Assembly (NCBI RefSeq): GCF_940670685.1
Contig: NZ_OW711693.1
Coordinates: forward strand, 1,426,001-1,490,000
DNA length: 64,000 nt
Direction of reading: 5' to 3'
Source of the DNA: Anaeropeptidivorans aminofermentans
Lineage (GTDB): Bacteria; Bacillota; Clostridia; Lachnospirales; UBA5962
This document shows, piece by piece, positions 4,019-47,656 of the stretch. The stretch's first letter is position 1. Every line of letters starts with the position of its first letter. The notes under the pieces were generated by a model, which made no database searches, was not told the origin of the DNA, and saw only the letters and a list, made by a program, of their open reading frames with translations. The translations under genes were made by a program, and so were the position numbers.

Positions 4019-4050
4019 AACAGCCTATTTTACTGATGGTCAATAACCCT

Positions 4051-4083
4051 GCAGGAGTCTGCCCTCTTTATGGGGCAGGCTCC
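4051..4083 (+). terminator. Hairpin after adhesin 1
   Basis: GGAGTCTGCCC (4054-4064) pairs with GGGCAGGCTCC (4073-4083) with one G-T-type wobble. It resembles the hairpins that follow the riboswitches of the later cassettes, so it may be what is left of such a cassette. There is no good T-tract. Confidence 0.45.
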
Positions 4084-4193
4084 CGCAACCGTTTAGCACT
4101 ATGAAATCAAGTGAATTTATAACCGCTTGTGCAGATTTTCGACCGCTTGATCATAACCCATTGAAAAACACTTGACAAAATGATACCCTAATA

Positions 4194-4237
4194 AAAACTA
4201 TCATACTTCTTCGGTGGAAGAGGTGTGGTAGTTTTTT
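4194..4237 (+). terminator. Intrinsic terminator before the pseudo-receiver pair
   Basis: AAAACTATCATACTTCTT pairs with AAGAGGTGTGGTAGTTTT (several G-U pairs), followed by a run of T. It lies 30 bases before the GTG start of the next gene, so it could also act as an attenuator. Confidence 0.6.
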
Positions 4238-4266
4238 ATTTGCATTTTAAGGAAGGAGGAGGTTGC

Positions 4267-5039: not shown

Positions 5040-5115
5040 GTGAAAGGATATCAGTAAGACAAATAATAAGGCAATGCCGCTTTAAAAAGAAGGGCATTGA
5101 GCAATGGAGGGCATT

Positions 5116-10302: not shown

Positions 10303-13135
10303 TGCTGGAGCAGATGCGGGTAGCATCACTGTCGCCCTCAAGGGCAACTATAGCGGAACAGCTACGGAGAAATTCACAATAAGCAAGGCATTAGCTCCCA
10401 CAGTGGCGACTCCTGCCAACATTGCCATGGTAAAAGGACAGGAAAGAGCCTATACCTTTGACCTCTCCACTCTTACCGTGCCGCAGAATGCAGGTGTGAA
10501 GACCTACGTGGTGGCATCTCCAAGCAATGCAGGTCTGTTCAAAGTAAATCCCACTGTTGACGGCAGTACGCTTAAATTTACTTCTGCAAATGTTGGGACA
10601 GCAGGCGGTACAGCCACGGCAGTCGTGACCATTAGAAGTGATAATTATCAAAACGCTACCGTTAGCTTGACCTTTAAGATCGTAGACAAATCGCCTGTAA
10701 CCATCAGTGGCATTGCCGTGGCAAGTAAGAGCTATGACGGCACAGCGGCAGTATATACAGGGACGCCTATTTCCCAAGACGTTGGAAGGACAGTCGCTGT
10801 TTCCGGCTATGACTATACATGGAGCAAGGCAGACGGCACACCGCTTTTAGAAGCACCTAAATCAGTGGGTAACTATAAGCTTTCGGTATCCGTCAAGGCA
10901 GATGATCCTAACTATATCGGCAGTATTAATGTGCCGTTTGAAATCGTCAAGGCTAACCTTATTATTAAAGCCGATGACAAGCATATATTGATTGGCGGAG
11001 CAAAGCCTGACTACACTGCAACGGTTACAGGACTGGTAAACGGCGAAACAATCAGTGGCATTAGCTTTACGGACAATGCTCCTAATACCAATACCAAGGG
11101 CAGCTTTACCATTACTCCTTCAAACGGCACAATCACCGGCGGCGGTAACGGCAACTACAATATCACCTACGAAACAGGCACGCTGACGATAGGTATTGAT
11201 GTGTCCGTCATTGATTCGGCAATCGCAGCGGCAAATACCGCAAAGAGCGGTGTTTCAGTGGACGATAGAGCGGCAAACCAAGTATCCAGTGGCACAAGAT
11301 TTGTTACCACGGCAGAAATGAACGCACTGACCGCTGCAATTCAAACGGCAACAGAGGCAAAAGTCACGGTAAACACAGCAGGAGAAGTACAGGCAGCAGC
11401 AAAGGCAATGGATGATGCGTTGACAGGTTTCAAAGCTGCAATCAAAACAGGAACCTATACCGCACCGAGCGGCGGTGGTTCTTCTGGCGGCGGCACATCC
11501 TCAGGAGGAGGTACGACTCCTGCTCCTGTCGCAACACCGGAAAAGATGCCAAATCAGCCGGTAACAGCAACGGCTCCTGTCACGGCAACAGCAGGGACAA
11601 ACGGTGCGGCAAGTTCATCTATCCCGGATAAAGCGGTAACCGATGCCATTGCAAAAGCACAGGCGGATGCAAAGGCACAGGGCAAAACAGCAAACGGCAT
11701 CACCGTTGCGCTGGATGTAACCATGCCAAAGGGCGCAGCTTCCTTGACAGCAACCCTTACCCGCAGCTCTTTGGATATCCTTGTAAGCGCCGGAGTCAGC
11801 AGCCTTGAAATCAACGGCTCCCTTGTACAGGTTAGCTTTGATAAAAAGGCGCTGGCAGAAATCCAGAAGCAAAGCACCGGTAATATCAATATTGCCATTG
11901 CACCAAAAACAAACCTTTCCAATGCGGCCAAAAAGATGATCGGCACAAGACCGGTCTATGACATTACGGTAGGCTATGGAAGCGGAAAAACAGTATCCAA
12001 CTTTGGCGGTGGGATTGCAACGGTATCTATTCCATATACGCTGGGCAAGAATGAAGCAGTCGGTGGTCTGTATGCGGTCTATGTAGACGCAAAGGGCAAT
12101 GCCACTCGTATTGCAGGCTCTGCCTATGATGCAAACAGCGGCTGTGTTATTTTCACAACCACGCACTTTTCGCAGTACGGCATTGGCTACACTGCACCGA
12201 CAGCAAAGTTTACAGATATCAGCACCCATTGGGCAAAGGAATCCATTGACTATGTGGTGGGCAGAGGGCTGATGTCCGGAAGTTCGGAAACAGCATTTAC
12301 ACCAAATTCTGCTATGACACGGGGAATGTTGGTAACAGCCCTTGGCAGACTAGCAGGAGTGGATACAAAAGCCTATACAAAGAACAGCTTCACAGATGTA
12401 AAAGCAGACAGCGCATATCATCCGTATATTGAGTGGGCGTACAGCAAGGGCATCATTCAGGGCATCGGAAACAGCCAGTTTGCTCCAGACAGGGCGATTA
12501 CCCGTGAGGAAATTGCGGTAATCTTTGCAAACTATGCAAAGGCAACCGGCTATACGCTGCCAATCACCCGTGAAGCAAACATGTATGCTGATGCTTCCGG
12601 TATTGGAAGTGCGTACAAAGACGCTGTAAAAGCCATGCAGCAGGCAGGAATTATGATGGGCGGCAGTGACAATAAGTTCAATCCAAAGGGAAATGCCACC
12701 CGCGCCGAGGTTTCCTCCATGTTAGGCCGTTATATCAAGCTGACCATCAACCCTGCCACAGCGCAGGGCTGGGCGCAAAACGATGCCGGACAGTACCTGT
12801 ACTACAAGGATGGCAAAGCTCTAACCGGCACACAGACCATCGACGGTGTGAAGTATTTCTTCAACACCGATGGTACGCTGAAAACCGGCTGGGTCAAGGA
12901 CGGCGATAACTGGCGTTTTTATTCCGGTAAGACAATGTTAGTCGGCTTTTGGGATCTTGGTGCAAACGGAAACAATAAGACCTATTACTTTACTAAGGAC
13001 GGTCTGATGATATCCGGGAAGTGGCTTGAGATTGACGGCAAATGGTACTATTTCTATACCGACGGCTCCCTTGCCAGAAGCACCAAAATCGACGGCTATG
13101 AGGTCGATAAAAACGGAGTGAGAAAAACAAAGTAA
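10301..13135 (+). CDS. C-terminal fragment of adhesin 2 with three SLH domains and choline-binding repeats
   Basis: This is the continuation of the preceding frame: NAGADAGSITVALKGNYSG completes the repeat that was cut. A GTG at 10403 could serve as a start, but there is no signal peptide and no convincing ribosome-binding site, so it is best read as the second half of one gene (5116-13135, about 2,670 residues). Order: MBG-type repeats, a FIVAR-like helical stretch (VIDSAIAAANTAKSGV ... AKAMDDALTGFKAA), a Gly/Ser-rich linker, the conserved pre-SLH module (KMPNQPV ... HFSQYGIGYT), three SLH domains from about residue 635, and choline-binding-type repeats from about residue 823. A GEMM-I riboswitch begins about 25 bases after the stop. 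Confidence 0.8.
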   Translation, partial: NAGADAGSITVALKGNYSGTATEKFTISKALAPTVATPANIAMVKGQERAYTFDLSTLTVPQNAGVKTYVVASPSNAGLFKVNPTVDGSTLKFTSANVGTAGGTATAVVTIRSDNYQNATVSLTFKIVDKSPVTISGIAVASKSYDGTAAVYTGTPISQDVGRTVAVSGYDYTWSKADGTPLLEAPKSVGNYKLSVSVKADDPNYIGSINVPFEIVKANLIIKADDKHILIGGAKPDYTATVTGLVNGETISGISFTDNAPNTNTKGSFTITPSNGTITGGGNGNYNITYETGTLTIGIDVSVIDSAIAAANTAKSGVSVDDRAANQVSSGTRFVTTAEMNALTAAIQTATEAKVTVNTAGEVQAAAKAMDDALTGFKAAIKTGTYTAPSGGGSSGGGTSSGGGTTPAPVATPEKMPNQPVTATAPVTATAGTNGAASSSIPDKAVTDAIAKAQADAKAQGKTANGITVALDVTMPKGAASLTATLTRSSLDILVSAGVSSLEINGSLVQVSFDKKALAEIQKQSTGNINIAIAPKTNLSNAAKKMIGTRPVYDITVGYGSGKTVSNFGGGIATVSIPYTLGKNEAVGGLYAVYVDAKGNATRIAGSAYDANSGCVIFTTTHFSQYGIGYTAPTAKFTDISTHWAKESIDYVVGRGLMSGSSETAFTPNSAMTRGMLVTALGRLAGVDTKAYTKNSFTDVKADSAYHPYIEWAYSKGIIQGIGNSQFAPDRAITREEIAVIFANYAKATGYTLPITREANMYADASGIGSAYKDAVKAMQQAGIMMGGSDNKFNPKGNATRAEVSSMLGRYIKLTINPATAQGWAQNDAGQYLYYKDGKALTGTQTIDGVKYFFNTDGTLKTGWVKDGDNWRFYSGKTMLVGFWDLGANGNNKTYYFTKDGLMISGKWLEIDGKWYYFYTDGSLARSTKIDGYEVDKNGVRKTK

Positions 13136-13252: not shown

Positions 13253-13290
13253 AAGAGCCTGCTCTCTATTCTAAGGGCAGGCTCTTGTCA
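13253..13290 (+). terminator. Hairpin after riboswitch copy 1
   Basis: AAGAGCCTGC (13253-13262) pairs with GCAGGCTCTT (13277-13286). The T-tract is weak. Its position directly after the aptamer suggests it is the expression platform. Confidence 0.6.
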
Positions 13291-13362: not shown

Positions 13363-13404
13363 ATGAGCATTCCAAACTTCCATCCTTTTCGGGGTTGGAA
13401 ATAA
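13363..13404 (+). CDS. 13-residue conserved micropeptide ORF, copy 1
   Basis: ATG to TAA encodes MSIPNFHPFRGWK. The other two cassettes encode MKIYRFYPFSRCK and MKIFRFYPFSRCK at the same place, all exactly 13 residues, each with a ribosome-binding site held in a hairpin. The shared pattern is M-x-I-x-x-F-[YH]-P-F-x-x-x-K. The same bases can also fold as a small hairpin (TTCCA/TGGAA here, TTTA/TAAA in copies 2 and 3), so conservation may be for RNA, peptide or both. Expression is not shown. Confidence 0.4.
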   Translation: MSIPNFHPFRGWK

Positions 13405-13431: not shown

Positions 13432-13489
13432 CAAATACAAAAAGACAGCATTTTGCTTTTACAGGCAGAGTGCTGTCTTTTTGTATTTG
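13432..13489 (+). terminator. Strong terminator after the 13-codon ORF, copy 1
   Basis: A 19-bp perfect stem (CAAATACAAAAAGACAGCA with its complement at 13471-13489) closes the riboswitch/micropeptide transcript. The 3' arm includes TTTTT. Confidence 0.75.
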
Positions 13490-29760: not shown

Positions 29761-29782
29761 ACTGGAACAACAAATCAATAAA

Positions 29783-29866
29783 GCTATGGGCAAACCCGGC
29801 TAAAGCCGGGGACGCAAAGCCGAGGGTCTAAGGTATCTTAGGATGCTATGATAGTCTGGCTGCTGA
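29783..29866 (+). ncRNA. GEMM-I (cyclic-di-GMP-I) riboswitch, copy 2
   Basis: All conserved parts are present: GGGCAAACC, stem CCCGGC/GCCGGG with loop TAAA, GGGACGCAAAGCC, GAGGGTCTAAGG, GCTATGATAGTCTGGCTGC. It begins about 25 bases after the adhesin 3 stop codon. The 30 bases before it are almost identical to those before copy 3. I see no promoter between stop codon and aptamer, so it may be part of the adhesin's 3' untranslated RNA. Confidence 0.9.
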
Positions 29867-29876
29867 CAGTTAAGCA

Positions 29877-29915
29877 AAGCCTGCCTTCATACTCGGAGGG
29901 CAGGCTTTTGCGGTT
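29877..29915 (+). terminator. Terminator after riboswitch copy 2
   Basis: AAGCCTGCC pairs with GGCAGGCTT, followed by TTGCGGTTTTT. It lies ten bases after the aptamer and is the likely expression platform. Confidence 0.72.
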
Positions 29916-29940
29916 TTTAACGGATGCTTTAGGTATCAGG

Positions 29941-29979
29941 GTACCGGCTTTCGCTATGGCTATGGCGAGAGAGGTATCC
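29941..29979 (+). promoter_or_regulatory. Hairpin covering the SD of the 13-codon ORF, copy 2
   Basis: GGTACCGGCTTTCGC can pair with GCGAGAGAGGTATCC; the 3' arm includes the GAGAGAGG ribosome-binding site of the ATG at 29982. Copy 3 keeps the outer GGATACC/GGTATCC pairing. Confidence 0.5.
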
Positions 29980-29981
29980 AT

Positions 29982-30023
29982 ATGAAAATATACCGCTTTT
30001 ATCCCTTTTCGAGGTGTAAATAG
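29982..30023 (+). CDS. 13-residue conserved micropeptide ORF, copy 2
   Basis: Encodes MKIYRFYPFSRCK, then TAG. It differs from copy 3 in a single residue (Y4 to F). It lies between the riboswitch terminator and a second terminator, so it is the only coding unit that the riboswitch could directly control on that short transcript. The bases also form a small hairpin (TTTA/TAAA), so an RNA role is possible instead. Confidence 0.42.
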   Translation: MKIYRFYPFSRCK

Positions 30024-30084
30024 AGCAAGAACATCCGATACATATTCCTATTCAAACCTGCAATTTAATAGTGTATACCTAAAA

Positions 30085-30127
30085 AAGTCAGTATTTTGCC
30101 ATGGGCATAGTGCTGACTTATTTTTTT
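30085..30127 (+). terminator. Terminator after the 13-codon ORF, copy 2
   Basis: AAGTCAGTA pairs with TGCTGACTT with an inner ATTTTGCC/GGCATAG arm; a run of seven T follows. Confidence 0.78.
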
Positions 30128-30154
30128 CGACAAAATTTCTGCTTGTTTTACAAT
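30127..30154 (+). promoter_or_regulatory. Promoter of sigma-like gene, copy 2
   Basis: TCGACA (30127-30132), 16 bases, TACAAT (30149-30154). Equivalent to 13487 and 38700, so the sigma-like genes have their own start of transcription. Confidence 0.58.
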
Positions 30155-30214
30155 ATATCCCATTTGAAGGCTCTTACAGTAGCCTTTCTGCACAACCACG
30201 ATGCCGTTCCCCAC

Positions 30215-30255
30215 CCTCCGATCTGTTTTCGCATTTCAGCAAAACAGATCGGAGG
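30215..30255 (+). promoter_or_regulatory. SD-sequestering hairpin before sigma-like gene, copy 2
   Basis: CCTCCGATCTGTTTT pairs perfectly over 15 bp with AAAACAGATCGGAGG around an 11-base loop. The whole GGAGG ribosome-binding site is inside the stem, nine bases before the TTG start. Translation should be blocked unless the stem is opened. Confidence 0.72.
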
Positions 30256-30263
30256 AAAGGAAT

Positions 30264-30758
30264 TTGAAAAATTATAAAGACAGTGATTATGCCTTAAATA
30301 AATTTAGCGATGGCATTGTCTACCGTTTCGCAGATCGCATTGTAGAAATCACGCTGGAGGATTACCTTGCGGAGAACCCCGGCAAGACGGCACAGGACTT
30401 TTTGGAGCTGAAAGACTTGTCGGATGAAATCTATCATGAGCAAGTCACACATGAAAATCGGACAAGCCGCTTGGATGTGAGCATCAACGGGCTGGAGGAA
30501 ACAGAGCAGCTTGCCGCACCACCCCTTGATTTGGACTTGATACATAAAAACGATACCCAAAAAGCCAAGGAAGCCGCAAGGCGGCTGCTGGACAGTGGAG
30601 AATTGACCGAAATCCAGCGGCGCCGGTTTATTCTGCATTTCGTAGAGGGCTTATCCTACCGGCAGATTGCCCATCGTGAAGGAGTACATTTCACCTCTGT
30701 CCACGGAAGCATAGAGGCAGCTACGGCAAAGCTACAAAAGTTTTTTGAAAGAAATTAA
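30264..30758 (+). CDS. Sigma-70-like (region 4) regulator, copy 2
   Basis: The protein has 164 residues. The start is TTG 30264: it aligns with the ATG of the other two copies and has GGAGGAAAGGAA before it, while upstream codons cover the hairpin. The sequence is close to copy 3 (NYKDSDYALNKFSDGIVYRFADRIVEITLEDYLAENPGKTAQ; LTEIQRRRFILHFVEGLSYRQIAHREGVHFTSVHGS). The C-terminal half is a sigma region 4 helix-turn-helix. A promoter at 30127 and a hairpin over the ribosome-binding site suggest control at two levels. The HTH/kinase/regulator operon follows. Confidence 0.82.
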   Translation: MKNYKDSDYALNKFSDGIVYRFADRIVEITLEDYLAENPGKTAQDFLELKDLSDEIYHEQVTHENRTSRLDVSINGLEETEQLAAPPLDLDLIHKNDTQKAKEAARRLLDSGELTEIQRRRFILHFVEGLSYRQIAHREGVHFTSVHGSIEAATAKLQKFFERN

Positions 30759-33237: not shown

Positions 33238-33546
33238 ATGGAAATGCGGTATGAACAAACGGGAACCGGACAGCCCCAAATTATCCGGGTCGAGGCGTTT
33301 GACGGAGACACCTTTGGTATTACACTGGACAGCGGGCACGCCATCCTGCTGGAGCTGGGGCACAGGATTAGGGAACCGGCCTTTGCCGCCCTCATCGAAA
33401 GCGGAGGCTTCTGCAAACCCTATACCGACGGCAAGGCAATCTGCTGGCCCGGAGGGGTATCCATCGCACTGGAGGAGATTTTGTCGATGCTTCTCTCCCC
33501 CGGCGATGTAACACGAAACCAAAATCAAGAGGAGGATTTGAGATGA
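33238..33546 (+). CDS. Small protein before adhesin 4 (DUF2442-like)
   Basis: The protein has 102 residues from ATG 33238 after AGGAGGTGGTT. The pattern DGDTFGITLDSGHAILLELGHRI ... FAALIESGGFCKPYTDGKAICWPGGVSIALEEIL resembles small DUF2442-type proteins, where a strand-rich core is followed by WPNG-like and a helix. The match is by eye and weak. It overlaps the next gene by ATGA, so it is cotranslated with adhesin 4. Confidence 0.5.
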   Translation: MEMRYEQTGTGQPQIIRVEAFDGDTFGITLDSGHAILLELGHRIREPAFAALIESGGFCKPYTDGKAICWPGGVSIALEEILSMLLSPGDVTRNQNQEEDLR

Positions 33547-36500
33547 GACGAACATGGAAACAAATCGGCAGTCTGTTTTTGGCGTTCTGTATGGTGTTTA
33601 CTATGCTGCCAACGATGGCCTTTGCCGAAACAGGTGATGTGGATTCCGGCGCACCGCTTGGAATGAGCGGAACCATCACCGCCTTTGCGGAATTGGGCAC
33701 CGATGTGGCGAACCAGACGGTGGAAGCCGGTACAACCGAGGATGCATTAAATCTGCCGGATACGCTGACCGTTACTGTCACCACCGGCCCTGCTGTTGCT
33801 ACCGCAACGGACAGCGACGCACAGCAGCTCGAAACACGGGAAACAGAAACCGCCGTGGCGGTGTCTGGCTGGACTTCCGATCCGGCTTATGACGGTGATA
33901 CGGTGGGGGACTATGTGTTCACCCCCACGCTGGATTTGCCCGAGGGCTTGATGCTGGCGGGAGGTGCTACCTTGCCGACCGTTACCGTGACGGTGCGGGA
34001 AAAATCCGCCGCGCCGCAGGCACGGGGCATGGTCGGGGCATTGGGTGTCGGTACAATCACCGGAACCATGAGTGTCGGCGGTACAACGGTCTCCGACCTT
34101 ACACAAGACAGCAACGGCACAGGCTGGACGTGGGAGGCCGAGTCCGCCACCCTGACGTTGGGCAGCAGTTATCCAGGCGATTTCATAAAATTTGAATGCG
34201 ATGGCGCCGATACCATCAACCTGGTATGCAACGGCACTGTCACGGTTAACAAAGGCGATACCTACGCAATACAAAGCTGGGGTAGCCTCGTCATCAAAGG
34301 CGACGGCCCGCTTACGATTTCCGACGGCGGCATAACGGCGTCTAAGGATATCGTCATCTTGGGGGCGATGGGGAATATCAGCGGCGCCAGCGTCGGCATT
34401 TCTGCCGGCGGCAGTGTTACTATCTCCGGCACGGTGGGCGATATTACGTCCATGGCGTACACGATTTACGCAAATGGAGACATTACCATTTCAGACGGCG
34501 GCGTTGTGGGCAAGATCGGCGCGGGAGGCACCGGCTCCAAAAGCGGCACCCATGGAATTTACGCGGGCGGCAGCGTTACCATCAACGGCGTAGCAGGTGA
34601 TATTTCAGGCAAATCCTATGGAATCTACGCAAAGGGCGGCAACGTTTTCATCAACGGCGCAACAGGAGCGATTAGTAGTGCATACGGATCACTTTCAGGC
34701 GATTCCGCCATTCGCGCAAGCGTTGGCGTTGCCATCAACGGCACAACAGGCGCGATCAGCTCCAAGGGCGATTACGGTATCTACGCAGAATCAGGCGCGG
34801 TTTTAATTGCCGGTAAAACTGGCGATATCACCGGCATGAAAGCCTTCGGCATTTTAGCGGAAGCGGGCGGTATTACAATTCCACCTGGCGCTGTTGTGGG
34901 CAAGATCGCCGGAGCTCAAAGCGGCATCGAAGCAGGCGGCAGCGTCACAATCGGCGGCAAAACCGGCGATATTACAGGCATAGCCGGCAGCACCTTTGGC
35001 GGTGGTATTCAAACAACCGGCAGCATCACAATCACAGGCGAAACGGGAGCTATTACCAGCACGCACGCCAGCATCCCGGCAATTGGCGCAGGCGGTGATG
35101 TTACAATTGTCGGCAGTGTGGGTGAGATTGCAGTCATCACCTCCAGCAGTGGTGGCGGCTACGGTATTCTGGCGCTCGGCGGCATTCACATCATCAACTC
35201 TGTTACGGTAAGCAGCTTTAATGGCGCGTTCAATAAAGCCCCCGCCACCTTACCACCCTCTTCCTATACAGCCACCTGGAGCGACAACCCGAACGGCTCC
35301 GCCTCTTCCACTAGCAGTACCTATGTATGGAACGCCAGCCACAAGTATGTAAAAATTGAGAAGGACAGCGGGATGTCCGCCCCCACGGTGTCGGGCTTTC
35401 GTGCTGAGCGCACGGATGCGGATAAAGTCAGCTTTTTCTTCACACCCAGCACCACCGGGAAATATGGATGTCAGATTGAGAAAAAAGGAACACCCGCACC
35501 GACATTTTTAGGTATGTTCCATGATATCACTGCTATCGTAGAAATCTGTATCGACGCAAAAGAGGATGGCGTCACCGCCTCCGATATTCTCGTGGTGTAT
35601 CTGCAAATCGAGAATGCGGAAGGCGTAAAGAGCCAGATATACTCCCTTGAAGTTCCGGCATACACACCGGCGGTAGACGCCGCGGCGCCAAACATCACCG
35701 GCCAGCCTATTGGTGCAATCTATGATAAAAATGCGCCAGCCGCCGCCCTGTCTGTGGCGGCAAGCGTAACGGACGGCGGAACCCTCTCCTATCAGTGGTA
35801 TTACAATCTCAGCAACAACACGACCAGCGGGAGCATGATTGGCGGCGCAATCGGCAGCAGCTATACCCCGGACGTCTCTTCTGTTGGAACGGTCTATTAC
35901 TACTGCGTGGTGACCAACACTAACAGCAGCGCAACCGGAAATAAAACTGCCGCGGCGACCAGCAATACCGTCGCTATTACGGTGAATGCGCCGGGCGGCG
36001 CAACCACCATCTCCGAAGTCGCCGTCATCGATGTAGGCGAGCCTGTGGGCGGCGAACAGAACGATATCCGCGCCAATGTTCCGAATGATGCCAAGTATGG
36101 GTTGGGTGGGAAAGATTGGTTTGATGTGGCTACAGGCAACTATTTGACCGAAGGTGAAAAATTTGTAGCGGGCAAGCAATATTTATATGAGGTACGTGTG
36201 ATACTAGATGCAGGATATACCCTTGCCCCTGGTTTCACCGCAACTATCAACGGCAAAGCGGCGACAGTGTATGATACCAGCCCCAGCGGAAGCGAGAGTA
36301 ACATCTACTGTGCCTTCACAGCAAAGGATGCCTCCGGCGGCATGCTCGATGCCCAAACACCCAACATCACCGGCCAGCCTGTCGGCGCAACCTACACGCA
36401 GAATGCAGTGGCTGTACCTCTATCTGTGGCGGCAAGCGTAACGGACGGCGGCACACTGTCCTATCAGTGGCACGGCAATAGTAATCCAGAGAAGGGTGGC

Positions 36501-38330
36501 ATAATCCCCGGCGCGACTGGGAAGACCTATACGCCGTCTACATCGGCAGTGGGTACGATGTATTATTGGTGCATCGTGACCAATACAAACACCGCCGTAG
36601 GCGGAAACAAAACGGCAACGATCTACAGCAATCAGATTTCTGTTACCGTACAAAAAGGCGGAAGCTCCGACAACGGAAATGGCGGCAATTCCGGTGGTGG
36701 CGGTTACACACCCCCTGCCACAATGCCGACCACACCCCAAGCAAAGCCTAATCAGCCGGTAACGGCAGAGGCTCCTGTGGCGGCGACTGCGGGCGCAAAC
36801 GGCACAGCCAGCGCATCCATCCCGGAAAAATCAATCACTGACGCCATTGCCAAGGCACAGGCCGATGCAAAGGCGCAGGGCAAAACCGCAAACGGAACCT
36901 CTGTTGCGCTGAATGTCACCATGCCGCAGGGGGCAACTTCCCTGACAACAACCCTGACCCAAAGCTCTCTGAACAGCCTTGTGAATGCTGGAGTAACCAG
37001 CTTTGAGATAAACGGTGCGCCGGTTTCTCTCGGACTTGACCTGAATACCCTCAAGGAAATCCAGAAGCAGAGCGGCGGCAATATTACCATCAGCATCGCC
37101 CCGGCGACAGGGCTTTCCGGAGAAGCAAAGACCCTCCTTGGAAACAGGCCGGTATATAACATTACCATCAGCTATGTCAAGGACGGCAAACCCGTGAACA
37201 TCACCAGCCTTGGCAGCGGAACATCGACCCTTTCCATCCCCTATACACTGGGCAAAAATGAGGCTGTCGGCTACCTGTTCGGCGTGTATGTGGACGCAAA
37301 CGGCAAACCGGTCCGCATCGACGGTTCGGCCTATGATGCAAACAGCGGAAGCCTGCTGATCCCCACCGGCCACTTCTCGGTGTACGGCGTGGGCTACACG
37401 GCTCCAAGCGTTAAGTTTACCGACATCAGCACCCATTGGGGCAAGGAAGCCATTGATTATGTGGTCGGCAGAGGACTTCTCTCCGGTACATCGGAAACTA
37501 CCTTTGCGCCCGACACCGCTATGACGCGTGGGATGCTGGTAACGGCTCTCGGCAGACTGGCAAATGTGGATACCAAAGCGTACACCACCAACAGCTTCAC
37601 CGATGTGAAGGCAGACAGTGCGTTCCGTCCCTACATTGAGTGGGCATATAAAAAGGGCATCATTCAGGGAATTGGCAACCAGCAGTTTGTGCCTGACAGG
37701 GCGATTACTCGTGAGGAAATTGCGGTCATCTTCGCAAACTTCGCCAAGGCTACCGGCTACACCCTGCCCGTGACCTGTGAGGCAACCTCCTATGCGGACG
37801 TTTCCAGCATCGGCAGCGTGTACAAAACGGCAGTAACAGCCATGCAGCAGGCAGGCATCATGATGGGTGGCAGCGGCAACAGGTTCAACCCGAAAGCCAG
37901 TGCCACCCGCGCGGAGGTTTCCTCCATGCTCCACCGCTACATCAGGCTGACCATCGACCCCGCCACGGCGCAGGGCTGGGCGAAAAAAGACGCCGGACAG
38001 TATCTCTACTACAAGGACGGCAAAGCGCTCACTGGCACACAGACCATCGACGGCGTAACGTATTTCTTGGGTACCGATGGCACTCTGAAAACCGGTTGGG
38101 TGAAGGACGGCGGCAACTGGAGGTACTATTCCGGTAACAAGGCTGCCGTGGGTTGGCTGGACATCAGCAACAAACGCTACTACTTTACCAAGGACGGCAA
38201 CATGATCTCCGGCAAATGGCTTCAGATTGACGGCAAGTGGTATTACTTCAACGCCGACGGTACGCTTGCAAGAAGCACCAAAATCAACGGCTACGAGGTT
38301 GACAAAAATGGCGTAAGAAAAATGAAGTAA
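33543..38330 (+). CDS. Giant SLH / choline-binding-repeat surface protein (adhesin 4)
   Basis: The protein has 1595 residues; GAGGAGG precedes the ATG. A signal peptide (WKQIGSLFLAFCMVFTMLPTMAFA) leads to the shared motif ITAFAELG ... LNLPDTLTVTV. Residues about 200-570 are repeats of a beta-helix type built on 'IGGKTGDITG', 'IYAKGG' and 'SGGVSI'-like steps. Two Ig-like domains follow (ITGQPIGAIYD, SYQWYYNLSNN), then a Gly/Asn linker, the pre-SLH module, three SLH domains from about residue 1290 and choline-binding-type repeats from about 1478 (GWVKDGGNWRYYSG, GKWLQIDGKWYYFNADGT). It is wall-bound and probably adhesive. The riboswitch of cassette 3 starts 17 bases after its stop codon. Confidence 0.9.
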   Translation: MRRTWKQIGSLFLAFCMVFTMLPTMAFAETGDVDSGAPLGMSGTITAFAELGTDVANQTVEAGTTEDALNLPDTLTVTVTTGPAVATATDSDAQQLETRETETAVAVSGWTSDPAYDGDTVGDYVFTPTLDLPEGLMLAGGATLPTVTVTVREKSAAPQARGMVGALGVGTITGTMSVGGTTVSDLTQDSNGTGWTWEAESATLTLGSSYPGDFIKFECDGADTINLVCNGTVTVNKGDTYAIQSWGSLVIKGDGPLTISDGGITASKDIVILGAMGNISGASVGISAGGSVTISGTVGDITSMAYTIYANGDITISDGGVVGKIGAGGTGSKSGTHGIYAGGSVTINGVAGDISGKSYGIYAKGGNVFINGATGAISSAYGSLSGDSAIRASVGVAINGTTGAISSKGDYGIYAESGAVLIAGKTGDITGMKAFGILAEAGGITIPPGAVVGKIAGAQSGIEAGGSVTIGGKTGDITGIAGSTFGGGIQTTGSITITGETGAITSTHASIPAIGAGGDVTIVGSVGEIAVITSSSGGGYGILALGGIHIINSVTVSSFNGAFNKAPATLPPSSYTATWSDNPNGSASSTSSTYVWNASHKYVKIEKDSGMSAPTVSGFRAERTDADKVSFFFTPSTTGKYGCQIEKKGTPAPTFLGMFHDITAIVEICIDAKEDGVTASDILVVYLQIENAEGVKSQIYSLEVPAYTPAVDAAAPNITGQPIGAIYDKNAPAAALSVAASVTDGGTLSYQWYYNLSNNTTSGSMIGGAIGSSYTPDVSSVGTVYYYCVVTNTNSSATGNKTAAATSNTVAITVNAPGGATTISEVAVIDVGEPVGGEQNDIRANVPNDAKYGLGGKDWFDVATGNYLTEGEKFVAGKQYLYEVRVILDAGYTLAPGFTATINGKAATVYDTSPSGSESNIYCAFTAKDASGGMLDAQTPNITGQPVGATYTQNAVAVPLSVAASVTDGGTLSYQWHGNSNPEKGGIIPGATGKTYTPSTSAVGTMYYWCIVTNTNTAVGGNKTATIYSNQISVTVQKGGSSDNGNGGNSGGGGYTPPATMPTTPQAKPNQPVTAEAPVAATAGANGTASASIPEKSITDAIAKAQADAKAQGKTANGTSVALNVTMPQGATSLTTTLTQSSLNSLVNAGVTSFEINGAPVSLGLDLNTLKEIQKQSGGNITISIAPATGLSGEAKTLLGNRPVYNITISYVKDGKPVNITSLGSGTSTLSIPYTLGKNEAVGYLFGVYVDANGKPVRIDGSAYDANSGSLLIPTGHFSVYGVGYTAPSVKFTDISTHWGKEAIDYVVGRGLLSGTSETTFAPDTAMTRGMLVTALGRLANVDTKAYTTNSFTDVKADSAFRPYIEWAYKKGIIQGIGNQQFVPDRAITREEIAVIFANFAKATGYTLPVTCEATSYADVSSIGSVYKTAVTAMQQAGIMMGGSGNRFNPKASATRAEVSSMLHRYIRLTIDPATAQGWAKKDAGQYLYYKDGKALTGTQTIDGVTYFLGTDGTLKTGWVKDGGNWRYYSGNKAAVGWLDISNKRYYFTKDGNMISGKWLQIDGKWYYFNADGTLARSTKINGYEVDKNGVRKMK

Positions 38331-38440: not shown

Positions 38441-38485
38441 AAGGGTCTGCCCTCTCTCAAGAGGGCAGACCCTTGCCATTTCTTT
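38441..38485 (+). terminator. Terminator after riboswitch copy 3
   Basis: AAGGGTCTGCCCTCT pairs perfectly with AGAGGGCAGACCCTT around CTCA; GCCATTTCTTT follows. Confidence 0.75.
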
Positions 38486-38557
38486 ACGGCTTTTGACGGA
38501 TAATTTGGGGTATCAGGATACCGGCTCTCATTGGACTATGGCGAGAGAGGTATCCAT

Positions 38558-38599
38558 ATGAAGATATTCCGCTTTTATCCCTTTTCGAGGTGTAAATAG
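38558..38599 (+). CDS. 13-residue conserved micropeptide ORF, copy 3
   Basis: Encodes MKIFRFYPFSRCK, then TAG, with GAGAGAGG before the ATG. A hairpin GGATACC/GGTATCC encloses that ribosome-binding site (38514-38555). See copies 1 and 2: same length, place and flanking signals. Confidence 0.42.
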   Translation: MKIFRFYPFSRCK

Positions 38600-38658
38600 A
38601 GAAAGAACAAACTATACATATCCCAGTTCAAACTTACAATTTAATCATGTAAACCTAA

Positions 38659-38702
38659 AAAAGTTAGCATTTTGCCAAGGGCGAAGTGCTGACTTTTTTT
38701 TG
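38659..38702 (+). terminator. Terminator after the 13-codon ORF, copy 3
   Basis: AAGTTAGCATTTTGCC pairs with GGGCGAAGTGCTGACTT, followed by a T run. Confidence 0.78.
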
Positions 38703-38727
38703 ATAAATTTCCTGTTTGATTTACAAA
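38700..38727 (+). promoter_or_regulatory. Promoter of sigma-like gene, copy 3
   Basis: TTGATA (38700-38705), 16 bases, TACAAA (38722-38727), as in the other two cassettes. Confidence 0.52.
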
Positions 38728-38786: not shown

Positions 38787-38827
38787 CCCCCGATCTGTTT
38801 TCGTATTTCAGCAAAACAGATCGGAGG
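38787..38827 (+). promoter_or_regulatory. SD-sequestering hairpin before sigma-like gene, copy 3
   Basis: CCGATCTGTTTT pairs perfectly with AAAACAGATCGG, the stem extending into the GGAGG site with one mismatch. Confidence 0.65.
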
Positions 38828-39330: not shown

Positions 39331-39849
39331 TTTCATACCCCTACACCCCCCTGTTTTTTTGACATTGGGTGAAAGGACTTCCAAATATCCTTTCGCCTGA
39401 ACATTGAAAACAGAATATGGGTGTGATGGGTACATCACCGGCAGGGAGAGCGACACGCTGGGACACGCCAAGACGAGGGCAATGCCCTCTGAGCGATTAT
39501 GTCTGCGGCAGTTACGCCCTGTGGTGGGACGGATTGCGACGATCCCTGCCGGTTATCATGGTACTTCTACTTTGAACGCTTCACCGCATTGAGTAGCCCG
39601 GCAGACGGCCGGGAAAACGCATCACCCTCGTTTGAGATAGAATGAGGGGCGGCTTTTATGGAGTCCGGCAACACCAGCCGGATCGCCTGTCACACCTTTG
39701 CTTTGATATAAAAATCTATCGTGCTCTATCGGAGCGATAGAAACCATGCGGCGGAACAGGTCTTTTGAGTCATCAAACTTTCAAACCGTTTCCTGATTCC
39801 GCCGCATTCTTGTGTCGCTCCTTTAGGCAAGCAAAGGAGGCAAAACGAT
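39331..39849 (+). other. Structured intergenic region of the element
   Basis: No convincing gene. It begins with TTTTTTTGACATTGGGT, also found fused to the end of sigma-like copy 1. GGTGAAAGGA/TCCTTTCGCC (39368-39397) is a perfect hairpin. TCTATCG/CGATAGA and ATGCGGCGGAA/TTCCGCCGCAT (near 39750-39810) are further stems. The 62-codon frame at 39404 has no ribosome-binding site. Structure of this density could be a transfer origin or regulatory RNA, but nothing decides this. Confidence 0.4.
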
Positions 39850-42694: not shown

Positions 42695-44362
42695 ATGCCA
42701 TTCAATAAGGAAATAACAATTTATAATGCTGTGGACTATTTGCGCCTGTCTAAAGAAGATGGCGATAAGGCAGAAAGCGACAGCATTGCCAATCAAAGAG
42801 ATTTAATAACCAATTTTGTGAAGTCAATGCCCGAAATCCGCCTCTGTTCCGAAAGAATAGATGACGGATTTAGTGGTGTTGACTTTAATCGTCCTGCCTT
42901 TAATTTAATGATGGAGGATGTAAGAGCTGGGCGGATCAACTGTATCATAGTCAAAGACCTGTCACGTTTCGGCAGAAACTACATCGAAGCAGGACGATAC
43001 ATTGAACGGATTTTTCCGTTTTTAGGTGTGCGTTTCATTGCTATCAACGACGGTTACGACAGTGCAAAGGAAAAATCACCGTCAGACGATATTATCATTC
43101 CGTTTAAGAACCTTGTCAACGATGCGTATTGCAGAGACATCTCCGTTAAAATCAGGAGCCAGCTTGATGTAAAGCGCAAAAATGGCGAGTTTATCGGTTC
43201 CTTTGCCGTTTACGGCTACATGAAATCAGCAGAGAACAAAAATAAACTGGCGATAGACCCCTATGCCGCAAAGATTGTGCGGGATATTTTTGCATGGAAG
43301 CTGGACGGACTCAGCCAGCAAGGGATAGCCGACAGGCTGAATGAGATCAGCGAGCCATCCCCCATGGAATATAAGCGGTTTTCGGGGCTTAACTTTGCTA
43401 CCAGCTTTCAGGTAAACCCCAAGGCAAAGTGGACTGCTGTGGCGATTGGCCGCATTTTGAAAAACCCTATTTATGCAGGGCATCTTGTGCAGGGCAAGGA
43501 AAGCACTCCAAACTACAAGATTAAACAGCGGATTATGAAACCGGAGGATAAATGGATTCGGGTGGAAAACACCCATGAGCCTATTATCCCGCAAGAAATT
43601 TTTGACACAGTAAACCGTGTGCTAGCACAGGATACCCGCATTGCTCCAGACGGAGAAGCTGTCTATCCGTTCTCCGGTCTGCTTTTTTGTGCTGACTGCA
43701 AAAGCGGTATGGTGCGAAAGATTGTACCCGCAGGCGGAAAGAAGTACGCCTACTATTATTGTTCAAAGAATAAGGCCGGGAATGGCTGTACCACACACTG
43801 CATCAGTGAAAAGGTATTGGAAAAAGCAGTTCTGCAAGCACTTCAAAATCACATCGCTTCTATTCTTGACATTGAACGGATTCTCTCGTTTATCGACACA
43901 CTTCCTATGCAGCAGGAGGAAATACGAAAGATTGATACTCAACTGCTGATGAAACAGGAGGAAATCGAAAAGTATAAAAACCTCAAGGTGTCTATCTATG
44001 GGGACTTAAAAAGCGGTGTCATTGATGCAGATGAGTACCGGGAATTTAAGGTCATATACGGAAAAAAGTGTGAGGAAGCGGAGAAAGCCGCCGAACGGCT
44101 AAAACAGGATATTGCCCTGATCCTTGCGGGTAAGGGAGCAAACAGCGTTTGGATTGAAGCCTTTAAGAAAAATCGGAATATCACCGAGCTGTCCCGAAAG
44201 ATAGTTGTTTCCCTGATTGAGTGGGTCAATATCTATTCCGGAAGCCGGGTGGAAATCCGATTCCGCTATCAGTATGAATATGAAAGAGCCTTGTTCTTTG
44301 CTCAAAACGCAAAAGAACTGATTGTTACAACTTCACCGGCTTCTATGCAGGGGGTGGTGTAA
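42695..44362 (+). CDS. Large serine recombinase 1
   Basis: The protein has 555 residues; GGGAGG precedes the ATG. The resolvase/invertase domain carries the catalytic serine in DYLRLSKEDGD (residue 19), the motif SIANQRDLI, and FSGVDFNRPAF ... CIIVKDLSRFGRNYIEAGRYIE. The recombinase domain (GFAVYGYMKSAENKN ... ILKNPIYAGHLVQGKE) and zinc ribbon (LLFCADCKSGMV ... YYYCSKNKAGNGC) follow, then a coiled-coil C-terminus. It belongs to the large serine integrases that mobilise Clostridial elements. Three such genes lie in a row, overlapping or nearly so. Confidence 0.9.
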   Translation: MPFNKEITIYNAVDYLRLSKEDGDKAESDSIANQRDLITNFVKSMPEIRLCSERIDDGFSGVDFNRPAFNLMMEDVRAGRINCIIVKDLSRFGRNYIEAGRYIERIFPFLGVRFIAINDGYDSAKEKSPSDDIIIPFKNLVNDAYCRDISVKIRSQLDVKRKNGEFIGSFAVYGYMKSAENKNKLAIDPYAAKIVRDIFAWKLDGLSQQGIADRLNEISEPSPMEYKRFSGLNFATSFQVNPKAKWTAVAIGRILKNPIYAGHLVQGKESTPNYKIKQRIMKPEDKWIRVENTHEPIIPQEIFDTVNRVLAQDTRIAPDGEAVYPFSGLLFCADCKSGMVRKIVPAGGKKYAYYYCSKNKAGNGCTTHCISEKVLEKAVLQALQNHIASILDIERILSFIDTLPMQQEEIRKIDTQLLMKQEEIEKYKNLKVSIYGDLKSGVIDADEYREFKVIYGKKCEEAEKAAERLKQDIALILAGKGANSVWIEAFKKNRNITELSRKIVVSLIEWVNIYSGSRVEIRFRYQYEYERALFFAQNAKELIVTTSPASMQGVV

Positions 44363-44363
44363 T

Positions 44364-46040
44364 ATGGCGAGGACGAGCAGAAAGCAAGCAGATAGTTTTG
44401 CCCAGGCCCCCCATGAAACGATATGGGATACCTGTATTTATGGGCGATTGTCCTTTGAAGATGAGAGGAAAAAAGAAAGCGATTCCATCGGCAATCAGAT
44501 TGCCATGCTGGAACGCTATATCGGGGAAAGGCCATACCTGAAGCTCGCATCTGTTTTTAAGGACATCAATCAGACAGGAACGAACTTCGACCGTCCCGGC
44601 TTCAATGAAATGATGGACGCCATCAAAAGTGGAAAAATCAATTGCATTGTGGTCAAAGACCTGTCCCGTTTCGGCAGAAATTACATTGAAACCGGAACCT
44701 ATCTTGAAAAAATACTGCCATTCTTTAACGTTCGTTTTATCTCCGTGAATGATGATTATGACAGCCTGAACCCTAATCAGCAGGATGAAGGATATGTTGT
44801 TCCCCTAAAAAACCTGATTCATGAAGTGTATGCCAGAGATATATCGCAAAAGATAAAATCAGGGCTTGCGGTTATGAGAAGTAAAGGAGAATTTACCGGT
44901 TGTGTCGCAGCTTATGGGTATCTAAAAGCAGACGGTAATAGGTTAGTAATCGACGAGGAAACCGCACCGGTTGTCAGAAATATTTTCAAATGGGCAGCGG
45001 ACGGCATGGGCGATGTTCGGATTGCACAAAGGCTCAACGAGCTGGGCATTCCCTCCCCAGGCCAGTATCGCTATGAAAAGGGCATCTTAAAAAGTGAGCG
45101 TTATGCCAATATACGGTATTGGTATAAAAGTGCCGTTCGCAGGATTTTAGTCAACCAGGTTTACCTCGGACATATGGTTCAAGGCAAAACAAAATCTGAC
45201 CTATGGGGCAAGGGTGGTTGCGTTGAGCAGCCACAGGATCAGTGGGTAGAAATCAAGAACACCCATGAACCCTTGGTTGATGAAGAAACCTTTTTGGCGA
45301 TACGGCAAATCAAGCAGGAACGGGAACCCAGTGAGAGAAAAGAAGTGGAGCAGAAAGGCTTAAATATCTTGAAAGGGCTTGTTTTCTGCGGTGACTGCAA
45401 GCGAAGTATGAACCGGCACAAAATGCCGAGGTCAAACGGCACAGTGCTTTACTACTTTACCTGTGCTACATACGAGAATGTTGCCAAAAATGACTGTGTT
45501 AGAAAGCGGATGGATGAACCGGAGCTGTTATCCATTCTCTATACGGCTATCCGCAAGCAGATTGACCTTGCTGTTGACATCGACCGAATGGTGTCTAAAC
45601 TGGGTGCAAGGGAAGGCTTCTGCCAGCAGCAAAATGATGTGGACACAGAGTTTTCCGAAACGGAAAAGAAGCTGTCCAGGCTGTCCATGCTCAGAAGCTC
45701 CTTGTATGAGGACTATCAGGAAAAACTCCTTGATGAAGCGGAATATCTCTTTACAAAAGCAAAGTATGAGAAAGATGTTATTGATTTACGGAAACGACTT
45801 GATGAACTATCCATGCAAAAACACCGTCTTGATACCATGCTGACACCTCAAAATCCATGGATAACAGCCTTGAAAAAATTCAAGAAGAACAAAGCTGTAA
45901 CGGGAGAAATGATTTCCGAGCTGATAGAACGGGTAGAAATATTAAGCGATCAAACAGTGTCCATCTGTTTTAGGTACAGGGATGAGTTTGAAAGTTTGCT
46001 CGGTTTTATCAAGGCGGAGGGTGAGGTGAGGGTTTCGTGA
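44364..46040 (+). CDS. Large serine recombinase 2
   Basis: The protein has 558 residues from ATG 44364, one base after the first recombinase stop, with GGGGTGGTG before it. Catalytic serine in CIYGRLSFEDE (residue 30), SIGNQIAML, and IVVKDLSRFGRNYIETGTYLEKI. The recombinase domain includes ILVNQVYLGHMVQGKTKSD; the zinc ribbon is LVFCGDCKRSMNRHK ... FTCATYENVAKNDC. It differs enough from its neighbours to show old duplication. It overlaps recombinase 3 by GTGA. Confidence 0.9.
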   Translation: MARTSRKQADSFAQAPHETIWDTCIYGRLSFEDERKKESDSIGNQIAMLERYIGERPYLKLASVFKDINQTGTNFDRPGFNEMMDAIKSGKINCIVVKDLSRFGRNYIETGTYLEKILPFFNVRFISVNDDYDSLNPNQQDEGYVVPLKNLIHEVYARDISQKIKSGLAVMRSKGEFTGCVAAYGYLKADGNRLVIDEETAPVVRNIFKWAADGMGDVRIAQRLNELGIPSPGQYRYEKGILKSERYANIRYWYKSAVRRILVNQVYLGHMVQGKTKSDLWGKGGCVEQPQDQWVEIKNTHEPLVDEETFLAIRQIKQEREPSERKEVEQKGLNILKGLVFCGDCKRSMNRHKMPRSNGTVLYYFTCATYENVAKNDCVRKRMDEPELLSILYTAIRKQIDLAVDIDRMVSKLGAREGFCQQQNDVDTEFSETEKKLSRLSMLRSSLYEDYQEKLLDEAEYLFTKAKYEKDVIDLRKRLDELSMQKHRLDTMLTPQNPWITALKKFKKNKAVTGEMISELIERVEILSDQTVSICFRYRDEFESLLGFIKAEGEVRVS

Positions 46041-47656
46041 GTATCAAGAAAATCCTTGCCGAGTATATCAGGCTATCTCAAGAGGACGAGAACGAGGGTG
46101 AAAGCAACAGTATAAGAAACCAGCGGGAGCTTCTGAATGCCTTTGTGGAAAGCTCCCCCGACCTCTCACAGTATGAAGTGGTTGAGTTTTGCGACGATGG
46201 TTACAGCGGTACAAATTTTGACCGTCCGGGCGTGAAAGCCCTGCTGGATGAAGTGCGTGCGGGAAACATACAGTGTATCATCGTAAAAGACCTGTCCCGT
46301 TTCGGAAGAAACTACATTGACATTGGAGATTATTTGGAGCAAATATTCCCCTTTTTAGGGGTGCGCTTTATCTCCGTCAACGACCATTTTGACAGCAATG
46401 ACTTTGACGGTACGACCGGCGGACTTGATGTGGGTTTCAGAAACCTGATTTACTCCCTTTACAGCAAAGACCTTTCACAAAAGGTACGGAGTGCAAAAAA
46501 GACCCGCATGGAGAAAGGAGAATTCATCGGCAGCCATGCTCCTTATGGCTATGCGAAATCGCCGGAAAACCGCAAGAAACTTGTGGTGGACGAAAAGGCT
46601 GCCGCCGTTGTCAGGCGTATCTTTGCCATGGCGGACGAAGGCAAAAATGCAGTCCAGATTGCCGCTGTTTTGAATTCGGAAAATGTACCTACGCCATATA
46701 TCTATAAGCGGCTTATGGGTTGTAACCGTAAATACAATGTGGTTGGAAATACGAATCACTGGCATAATACGACTATCCTGACCATTATCCGTGATGAGCG
46801 CTACACAGGGAAAATGGTAAATGGGAAAAATCGCAGTCCTTTTGTCGGGAGTAAGCATGGAAAACGCATCCCAAAAAGTGAGTGGATTGTCGTACCCAAT
46901 ACCCATGAGGCTATTGTTTCGGAGGAATTATTTGCTTCGGTTCAGGAGCGTTTCTCTGCCCCTGCGAGGATAAGGACAGAACCGGCCGAGATCAGACCAC
47001 TGATGGGTAAAGTGAAATGTGGGGTTTGCCAGCACGTTATGCGAAGAAGCAATAGCCCCTCGGCTACTGCATATTATTATTGTGAGAGCCATCAATATGT
47101 GGCTGACAGCACTTGCACAAAGGATAGGATTCCCGAAGTCAGTTTGATACAGACCGTCCTATCTGTGATACATAAACAGATAGAGACCATGCTTGATATG
47201 GAACAGTTTTTTGACAGAGTGAAAACGCAAAGCCATAATGATATAACCACTCTGACAGAGCAAATCAGGCAGCTCCAAGCCGTCCTCGCCAAGCTGAAGG
47301 CTTCCAAAGTTAAGGCATATGAAAAATACAAAGATGGGGCTTTGGACAGGGACAGCTATCGAAGCCAAAAGGCGGATATTGGTAAGGAAATTGCGGAAAC
47401 AGAATCCCAAATCGTTGGACTTGAAACGTCATTGCAAAGCCGTTATCTTGAAAACGGACAGCCAATCTCCATCATTGAGAGCTTCAAGCGATATGAGGGA
47501 TTTACGGAACTTTCAAAAGAAATGGCAGATGAACTAATTGACAGTATCTATATCTACGGAAATGAAGCGATTGAAATTGTGTGGAACCATAAGGATGAGT
47601 ATATGAGGCTTGTCCAGTATGTCGAAAAAGGAGTATGCGCAGATGAAAACAGATAA
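46037..47656 (+). CDS. Large serine recombinase 3
   Basis: The protein has 539 residues from GTG 46037, overlapping the previous stop. Catalytic serine in EYIRLSQEDENE (residue 14), SIRNQRELL, and FSGTNFDRPGVKALL ... IIVKDLSRFGRNYIDIGDYLEQIF. The zinc ribbon is VKCGVCQHVMRRS ... YYCESHQYVADSTC, and the C-terminus is coiled coil. All three appear intact. Triple serine recombinase sets are known at the ends of some Firmicute integrative elements, so the right end of this element should be close downstream. Confidence 0.9.
   Translation: MSIKKILAEYIRLSQEDENEGESNSIRNQRELLNAFVESSPDLSQYEVVEFCDDGYSGTNFDRPGVKALLDEVRAGNIQCIIVKDLSRFGRNYIDIGDYLEQIFPFLGVRFISVNDHFDSNDFDGTTGGLDVGFRNLIYSLYSKDLSQKVRSAKKTRMEKGEFIGSHAPYGYAKSPENRKKLVVDEKAAAVVRRIFAMADEGKNAVQIAAVLNSENVPTPYIYKRLMGCNRKYNVVGNTNHWHNTTILTIIRDERYTGKMVNGKNRSPFVGSKHGKRIPKSEWIVVPNTHEAIVSEELFASVQERFSAPARIRTEPAEIRPLMGKVKCGVCQHVMRRSNSPSATAYYYCESHQYVADSTCTKDRIPEVSLIQTVLSVIHKQIETMLDMEQFFDRVKTQSHNDITTLTEQIRQLQAVLAKLKASKVKAYEKYKDGALDRDSYRSQKADIGKEIAETESQIVGLETSLQSRYLENGQPISIIESFKRYEGFTELSKEMADELIDSIYIYGNEAIEIVWNHKDEYMRLVQYVEKGVCADENR

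Follow-up and report, generated by a model that had tools for sequence, protein, structure and literature searches.

Riboswitches are usually treated as leaders of the genes that they control. A canonical GEMM-I leader, Cdi-1-3, lies in the 5' UTR of the flgB operon, which it regulates (PMC6200980), and most type I c-di-GMP riboswitches of C. difficile terminate transcription at high c-di-GMP (PMC7699646). In Listeria monocytogenes a riboswitch that is the leader of downstream genes also ends the transcript of an upstream gene lacking a terminator of its own (reviewed in PMC7821165). The GEMM-I aptamers Cdi1_4 and Cdi1_5 of C. difficile lie in the prophages phiCD630-1 and phiCD630-2 before antitoxin RNAs, have their own mapped promoter P1 directly in front of the aptamer and give both terminated and read-through RNAs (PMC7699646). 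Finally, 023_CTn from C. difficile is a clostridial transposon with genes for a serine recombinase, PemK/MazF and a sigma-70-like protein (PMC6814731); a text search of that paper found no mention of a riboswitch.

The three GEMM-I aptamers described here belong to a group which, carried on mobile DNA, instead trails genes unrelated to one another. They are located on a stretch of 64,000 nt (positions 1,426,001–1,490,000, hereafter the window) of the single-contig 3.76-Mb genome of Anaeropeptidivorans aminofermentans. By covariance model they belong to the same aptamer family as Cdi-1-3 but they stand behind a stop codon. As in Listeria, the codirectional upstream gene has no terminator before the riboswitch, and both are predicted to be linked in one transcript. 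Unlike in Listeria, no promoter belonging to the aptamer was found, and the putative target is just an ORF of 10–13 codons, closed by a second terminator; moreover, the aptamer travels behind unrelated cargo genes. With Cdi1_4 and Cdi1_5 the new cassette shares the location on a mobile element and an output other than an ordinary gene, whereas a promoter directly before the aptamer is not apparent in the cassette. The likeness to 023_CTn is one of gene set: a sigma-70-like ORF, PemK, serine recombinases and surface-protein cargo. Judged by analogy of position, the cassette would work like the Listeria arrangement. The mechanism of a riboswitch ending an upstream transcript is therefore not new; the portable GEMM-I/mini-ORF cassette appears to be, and a search of a limited literature collection found no description of a GEMM-I aptamer that lacks a promoter, is coupled to a mini-ORF and stands where cargo and mobility genes meet, nor of one with this layout on conjugative elements.

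Position of the aptamers

A cmscan of the window with Rfam yielded three GEMM-I aptamers (RF01051, c-di-GMP-I), all on the forward strand, with 76–79 bits as compared to a gathering score of 35; the matches cover the full aptamer (model positions 1–87) in each of the copies 1–3 (Table 1). The cassette aptamer is thus GEMM-I by covariance model, and binding of c-di-GMP is predicted. Directly 5' of all three there are genes for SLH adhesins. From the last base of the upstream stop codon in the ORF list (the cargo gene ends in Table 1) to P1 the gap is 27 nt in copy 1, 23 nt in copy 2 and 19 nt in copy 3, and 16–27 nt separate stop and aptamer at five SLH adhesins (the three of the window and those of loci L069 and L072 elsewhere).

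The sequence GAACAACAAATCAATAAAGCTATGGGCAAACCCGGC is common to copies 2 and 3, the difference being four additional bases after the stop of copy 2, and the leader of copy 1 is unlike that of the two others. The original prediction, according to which the aptamers sit just after stop codons without a visible promoter and with a nearly identical intervening stretch in copies 2 and 3, is borne out on both points: the gaps contain neither a terminator nor a credible sigma-A promoter, and the two stretches are the same apart from the four bases. The likeness of copies 2 and 3 was rejected as functional evidence by itself, since it starts at the stop codon and spans the entire cassette and therefore reflects shared ancestry. 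A fourth GEMM-I aptamer of the same genome, outside the window, occupies an ordinary leader site approximately 185 nt 5' of an ORF of 276 codons.

Two separate ORFs (5104–10302 and 10403–13135) make up the adhesin that precedes copy 1. The frame shifts near 10300, which indicates either a frame-broken gene or an assembly error at this place.

Table 1. Coordinates of cassette elements, cargo genes and mobility genes within the window
Feature	Position	Strand	Basis
T1-like hairpin, 35 nt after stop of adhesin 65-4018	4054–4083	+	structure match
T2-like terminator behind adhesin 65-4018	about 4193–4239	+	
Cargo gene of copy 1: 3' part of split SLH surface-protein gene	10403–13135	+	ORF, domains
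GEMM-I aptamer copy 1; P2 loop AAAA, no AGCYA/UGGCU P1	13158–13245	+	cmscan 79.3 bits
Hairpin T1 copy 1, without U-tail	13254–13285	+	hairpin/terminator scan
13-codon mini-ORF copy 1, MSIPNFHPFRGWK	13363–13404	+	
Terminator T2 copy 1	13440–13487	+	terminator scan, covariance model R1 match
Cargo gene of copy 2: SLH + LysM surface protein, 2069 aa	23551–29760	+	ORF, Pfam SLH/LysM/Flg_new
Stop-to-P1 gap copy 2, without terminator or promoter	29761–29782	+	terminator and promoter scans
GEMM-I aptamer copy 2; P2 loop UAAA	29779–29867	+	cmscan 76.3 bits
Hairpin T1 copy 2 (upper stem), terminator-like tail TGCGGTTTTT	29876–29908	+	terminator scan, alignment
Hairpin with mini-ORF RBS, copy 2	29940–29979	+	alignment
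13-codon mini-ORF copy 2, MKIYRFYPFSRCK	29982–30023	+	frame retained across 10-, 12-, 13-codon cassettes
Terminator T2 copy 2	30081–30127	+	covarying helix; R1 match
Sigma-70 region-4-like ORF behind copy 2; likely start TTG 30264 (listed as 30201–30758)	30264–30758	+	ORF, Pfam
Cargo gene of copy 3: SLH + choline-binding-repeat surface protein	33543–38330	+	ORF, domains
GEMM-I aptamer copy 3; P2 loop AAAA	38345–38433	+	cmscan 77.4 bits
Hairpin T1 copy 3	38441–38474	+	terminator scan
RBS hairpin copy 3	38517–38556	+	alignment
13-codon mini-ORF copy 3, MKIFRFYPFSRCK	38558–38599	+	
Terminator T2 copy 3	38656–38703	+	R1 match
Three large serine recombinases, mobility end of copy-3 element	42695–47656	+	Pfam Resolvase/Recombinase/Zn_ribbon_recom

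Anatomy, cargo and distribution of the cassette

The aptamer is the first element of a cassette of approximately 340 nt, in which it is followed by hairpin T1, a hairpin with the RBS, an ORF of 10–13 codons (mini-ORF) and the strong terminator T2. The T1 of copies 2 and 3 is called terminator-like by the terminator scan and that of copy 1 is not; in several other cassettes the U-tail of T1 is displaced by ~10–17 nt. The helices of T1 and T2 show covariation, T2 being the best conserved terminator of the cassette. The RBS hairpin is present in every intact cassette of alignment A2, with 98–100% of the cells paired. The mini-ORF has 10, 12 or 13 codons and changes in length always by whole codons. 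Its C-terminus (R/G-C/W/S-K/R-stop) is retained in most cassettes and its middle is variable (e.g., MKIFRFYPFSRCK, MGFYTYKRWQ, MGNNSHPPARRCR and MLHSNNCVLRWR); a pN/pS of 0.48, obtained with one small group of 13-codon sequences, is weak and non-independent evidence of translation. The peptide as a conserved product was considered and dropped because of the variable middle, a peptide function being unsupported beyond the C-terminal residues.

The genes in front of the cassette are exchangeable. Besides the adhesins of the window, the cargo is a LysM-type SLH adhesin at L069 and L072, an arsenate-reductase-type protein at L049, L066, L068 and L071, an Erm-type rRNA adenine dimethylase at L065, MgtC at L067, an ArsP-type permease at L017/L096, a ZIP transporter at L093 and an ABC-2 exporter subunit at L094. 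Since the same cassette is found behind unrelated cargo genes, it belongs to the mobile element and not to the adhesins, and the position directly after a stop codon is explained by the cargo abutting the cassette. At L062 (Lacrimispora amygdalina) an intact cassette is immediately preceded by the last bases of a LysM-type adhesin frame, all that is left of this gene, which points to replacement of the cargo.

In total, 16 distinct intact cassettes were found across Clostridia. Scanning 84,980 species genomes with the RBS-hairpin pattern alone gave 11 loci, all 11 with a GEMM-I aptamer just upstream. A covariance model of the region from RBS hairpin to T2 (R1), run over approximately 780 genomes, added cassettes with intact aptamer in four genomes (G564, G585, G334 and G261), two decayed copies (L076/L078) with damaged aptamer and the mini-ORF ATG changed to ATA, and one copy without aptamer. 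Plasmid and phage collections searched with the downstream unit yielded no match.

Proposed function

Each aptamer probably opens an RNA cassette which has no promoter, is read as 3' UTR of the cargo mRNA and decides between ends at T1 and T2. Clostridial mobile elements would carry this cassette at the junction of cargo gene and mobility genes. RNA polymerase leaving the cargo gene, here that of an SLH adhesin, would meet no terminator and enter the cassette. The aptamer would thus form part of the untranslated 3' end of the cargo mRNA, where it would sense c-di-GMP, and its ligand state would determine whether the RNA ends at T1 or runs through RBS hairpin and mini-ORF to T2, which would insulate the downstream genes for the sigma-like protein and the recombinases. 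By analogy with most of the C. difficile type I riboswitches, high c-di-GMP would favour termination at T1, making the cassette an OFF switch for the mini-ORF, the direction being a guess. The sequences themselves show the anatomy and order of the cassette, the exchange of cargo, the lack of a conserved promoter and of a gap terminator, and the deletion that brings T2 behind the adhesin; co-transcription, ligand binding, conditional termination at T1 and translation of the mini-ORF are predictions.

Natural deletions bear on this reading. In genome G290, an adhesin of the copy-1 type with the same C-terminus and stop codon stands at two loci (L091 and L092) upstream of a deletion which has removed aptamer, T1, RBS hairpin and ATG and which has kept the tail of the mini-ORF and T2; T2 would therefore be the terminator of the adhesin there. 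The window also contains a fourth SLH adhesin (65-4018), whose stop codon is followed by a hairpin resembling T1 and a terminator resembling T2 but not by an aptamer. The region 4019–4240 is matched by R1 with 16.5 bits (E = 0.18) and is considered an aptamer-less sibling of the cassette. Both the G290 deletion and adhesin 65-4018 fit the view that adhesin transcripts normally enter this region and end at its terminators.

The original prediction had offered two origins for the aptamer RNA, the 3' untranslated part of the adhesin transcript, with a decision on whether transcription continues to the 13-codon unit, or a promoter inside the gene, and had called both unusual for GEMM-I. The location in the adhesin 3' UTR has the best support, given the lack of a terminator and of a conserved or strong promoter and the G290 deletion. 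A 3' UTR element specific for adhesins had to be discarded, however, because the same cassette occurs behind arsC-, Erm-, MgtC-, ZIP-, ArsP- and ABC-type genes. Control over whether transcription reaches the 13-codon unit is no more than plausible: the T1 of copies 2 and 3 resembles a usable terminator, that of copy 1 does not. The arrangement is indeed unusual for GEMM-I, although termination of an upstream gene's transcript by a riboswitch is already described for Listeria (PMC7821165).

The poor or displaced U-tails mean that T1 may not be a terminator. A serious rival, which we hold to be possible without favouring it, is a translational switch: c-di-GMP would alter the access to the mini-ORF RBS, and T1 would be a structural element. 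Such a switch is consistent with the RBS hairpin present throughout A2, with the lower helix of T1, which covaries, pairs with its own U-tract and overlaps two bases of the 3' strand of P1, and with the decayed copies L076/L078, in which aptamer and start codon have decayed together. However, no conserved pairing of aptamer or T1 with the RBS hairpin was found among the cassettes, nor was a conserved antiterminator pairing. Single-sequence MFE folds are inconsistent with one another and with the aptamer.

More generally, and only tentatively, the cassette may be a portable 3'-UTR module by which mobile elements append a GEMM-I aptamer and a regulated mini-ORF to any cargo gene, the outcome of c-di-GMP sensing controlling the mini-ORF or, beyond T2, the sigma-like and recombinase genes. 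If this is true, a second messenger is read at the 3' end of cargo mRNAs, and pipelines that automatically pair a GEMM-I aptamer with the gene annotated after it mistake the target in elements of this kind. The biofilm signal c-di-GMP may then also be tied to horizontal transfer or to the expression of surface adhesins.

Promoters and terminators before the aptamers

Terminator scans found no intrinsic terminator in the gap between stop and aptamer of copies 1–3, and none was seen in the gap sequences of the other loci, which were read by eye. Promoters were scored in the 150 nt upstream of the aptamer with a sigma-A position weight matrix (PWM) and a shuffle p; it should be noted that the matrix is our own approximation of the sigma-A consensus and that alternative sigma factors would be missed. 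The top score is 5.1 (p = 0.37) in copy 2, 7.5 (p = 0.13) in copy 3 and 9.6 (p = 0.02) in copy 1.

For comparison, 29 GEMM-I aptamers outside cassettes were used as controls (28 from other genomes of the order and the one from the same genome), with a median distance to the left-hand gene of ~156 nt. The median promoter score is 10.6 in these controls versus 6.75 in 12 cassette aptamers (Mann-Whitney p = 7e-5), and the median shuffle p is 0.07 versus 0.475 (Mann-Whitney p = 3e-3), a contrast to be taken as supporting evidence only, given the approximate matrix and the different GC content of the two sets. The stop-adjacent, promoter-poor arrangement is more than chance; it is rare for GEMM-I in this order, yet not unique, as there is a sole control sharing it (L026, 10 nt 3' of an ORF stop and without promoter). 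L026, from genome G023, is an unrelated GEMM-I aptamer after the stop of an ORF of ~500 codons that looks like the end of ileS. It has a terminator behind and no promoter in front, and its P2 loop is UAAA, not GAAA.

In 11 cassettes with different cargo, identity is 0.90 in the aptamer, 0.50–0.71 in the last 20 nt before the aptamer's GGCAAACC and 0.28–0.33 from −21 to −60, where 0.30 is expected by composition. Conservation beyond 20 nt is thus at background, from which it follows that the cassette carries no conserved promoter; any promoter borne by the cassette would have to sit in the unconserved stretch from −21 to −60. A promoter between stop and aptamer was rejected on the scans of copies 1–3, the PWM scores and the conservation profile. 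Directly upstream of the window copies there is no conserved or strong intergenic promoter of their own as in a canonical 5' leader, though an alternative sigma factor could still serve. At L017, L061, L065 and L067 the nearest ORF of 60 or more amino acids ends 140–340 nt upstream, which leaves room for a promoter.

A promoter in the 3' end of the upstream gene or in a cargo-specific gap, with the riboswitch as ordinary leader of a short mini-ORF transcript, is rather unlikely. Motifs do exist. In copy 3 there is TTGACA-18-TGAAGT, ending 21 nt before P1, in which TTGACA is part of the codons GTT-GAC-AAA and TGAAGT is poor; in copy 1 it is TTGACG-17-TATACC, its −10 element ending 102 nt before P1 within the gene; and L049 has a score of 10.5. 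Moreover, GEMM-I aptamers of the same order mostly have promoter-like motifs upstream. However, the TTGACA of copy 3, the only motif there, has no counterpart at these codons in the sibling adhesins, which read GTCGATAAA in copy 1 and GTCGATGCA in adhesin 65-4018. Furthermore, the similarity of the cassettes from −60 to −20 is no better than chance, and copy 2, L069 and L072 score just 4–5. The promoter inside the gene, the second origin considered by the original prediction, is therefore less likely than the 3' UTR.

Downstream mobility genes

The order cargo, GEMM-I, mini-ORF, T2 and sigma-70-region-4-like ORF is fixed. Then follow PemK or DinG-type genes and, wherever the reading was extended far enough (window, L093 and L096), large serine recombinases. 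In Tn916, read-through from tet(M) is thought to drive the regulators. By likeness to this, cargo transcription that passes both T1 and T2 could drive the sigma-like ORF and the recombinases, which would couple excision or transfer to c-di-GMP. We regard such a two-stage attenuator, with which the fixed gene order agrees, as unlikely: T2 is the best conserved terminator and nothing was seen that would open it; the sigma-like ORF probably has its own promoter, as T2 is followed by a promoter-like site (30127–30154 in copy 2) and a conserved CGAC repeat; and recombinases do not directly follow the inner copies 1 and 2.

The CGAC repeat is a direct repeat, CGAC-N16-CGAC, with a period of 20 nt (two helical turns). 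Most cassettes (e.g., L061, L065, L067, L075, L077, L087, L088 and copy 1) have it directly 3' of T2, ahead of the sigma-like ORF; it looks like an operator or a part of the promoter of this ORF. The leader of the sigma-like ORF contains, in the window (30218–30256 and 38790–38827) and at other loci, an inverted repeat overlapping the RBS, which in group A is CCGATCTGTTTT...AAAACAGATCGG. Approximately 1.2 kb behind the riboswitch, one group of elements has a dinG RNA (RF03082) and the other a pemK RNA (RF02913) at the same position (window 39557–39657; L061, L065, L067, L077, L087 and others).

Integrity of the aptamers and the ligand

A GNRA (GAAA) tetraloop on P2 is typical of the GEMM-I family, although not obligatory. 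In 13 of the 16 cassette aptamers, including all three of the window, the P2 loop is AAAA or UAAA instead, whereas nearly all of the 29 controls carry GAAA, which is lacking in one clear case. With the loss of the tetraloop, the affinity of the cassette aptamers for c-di-GMP may be altered. It is improbable that the aptamers, as passengers of duplicated mobile elements, are in decay and have no present function behind the adhesins. In favour of decay are the absence of GAAA from most copies, of an evident P1 and a T1 tail from copy 1 and of any aptamer from adhesin 65-4018 and the G290 adhesins; against it are the covariation in T1 and T2, the scores of 76–79 bits, the mini-ORF frame maintained over whole-codon length changes and, for one small group, the pN/pS of 0.48. 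The host genome has 13 GGDEF-domain matches and therefore very likely makes c-di-GMP.
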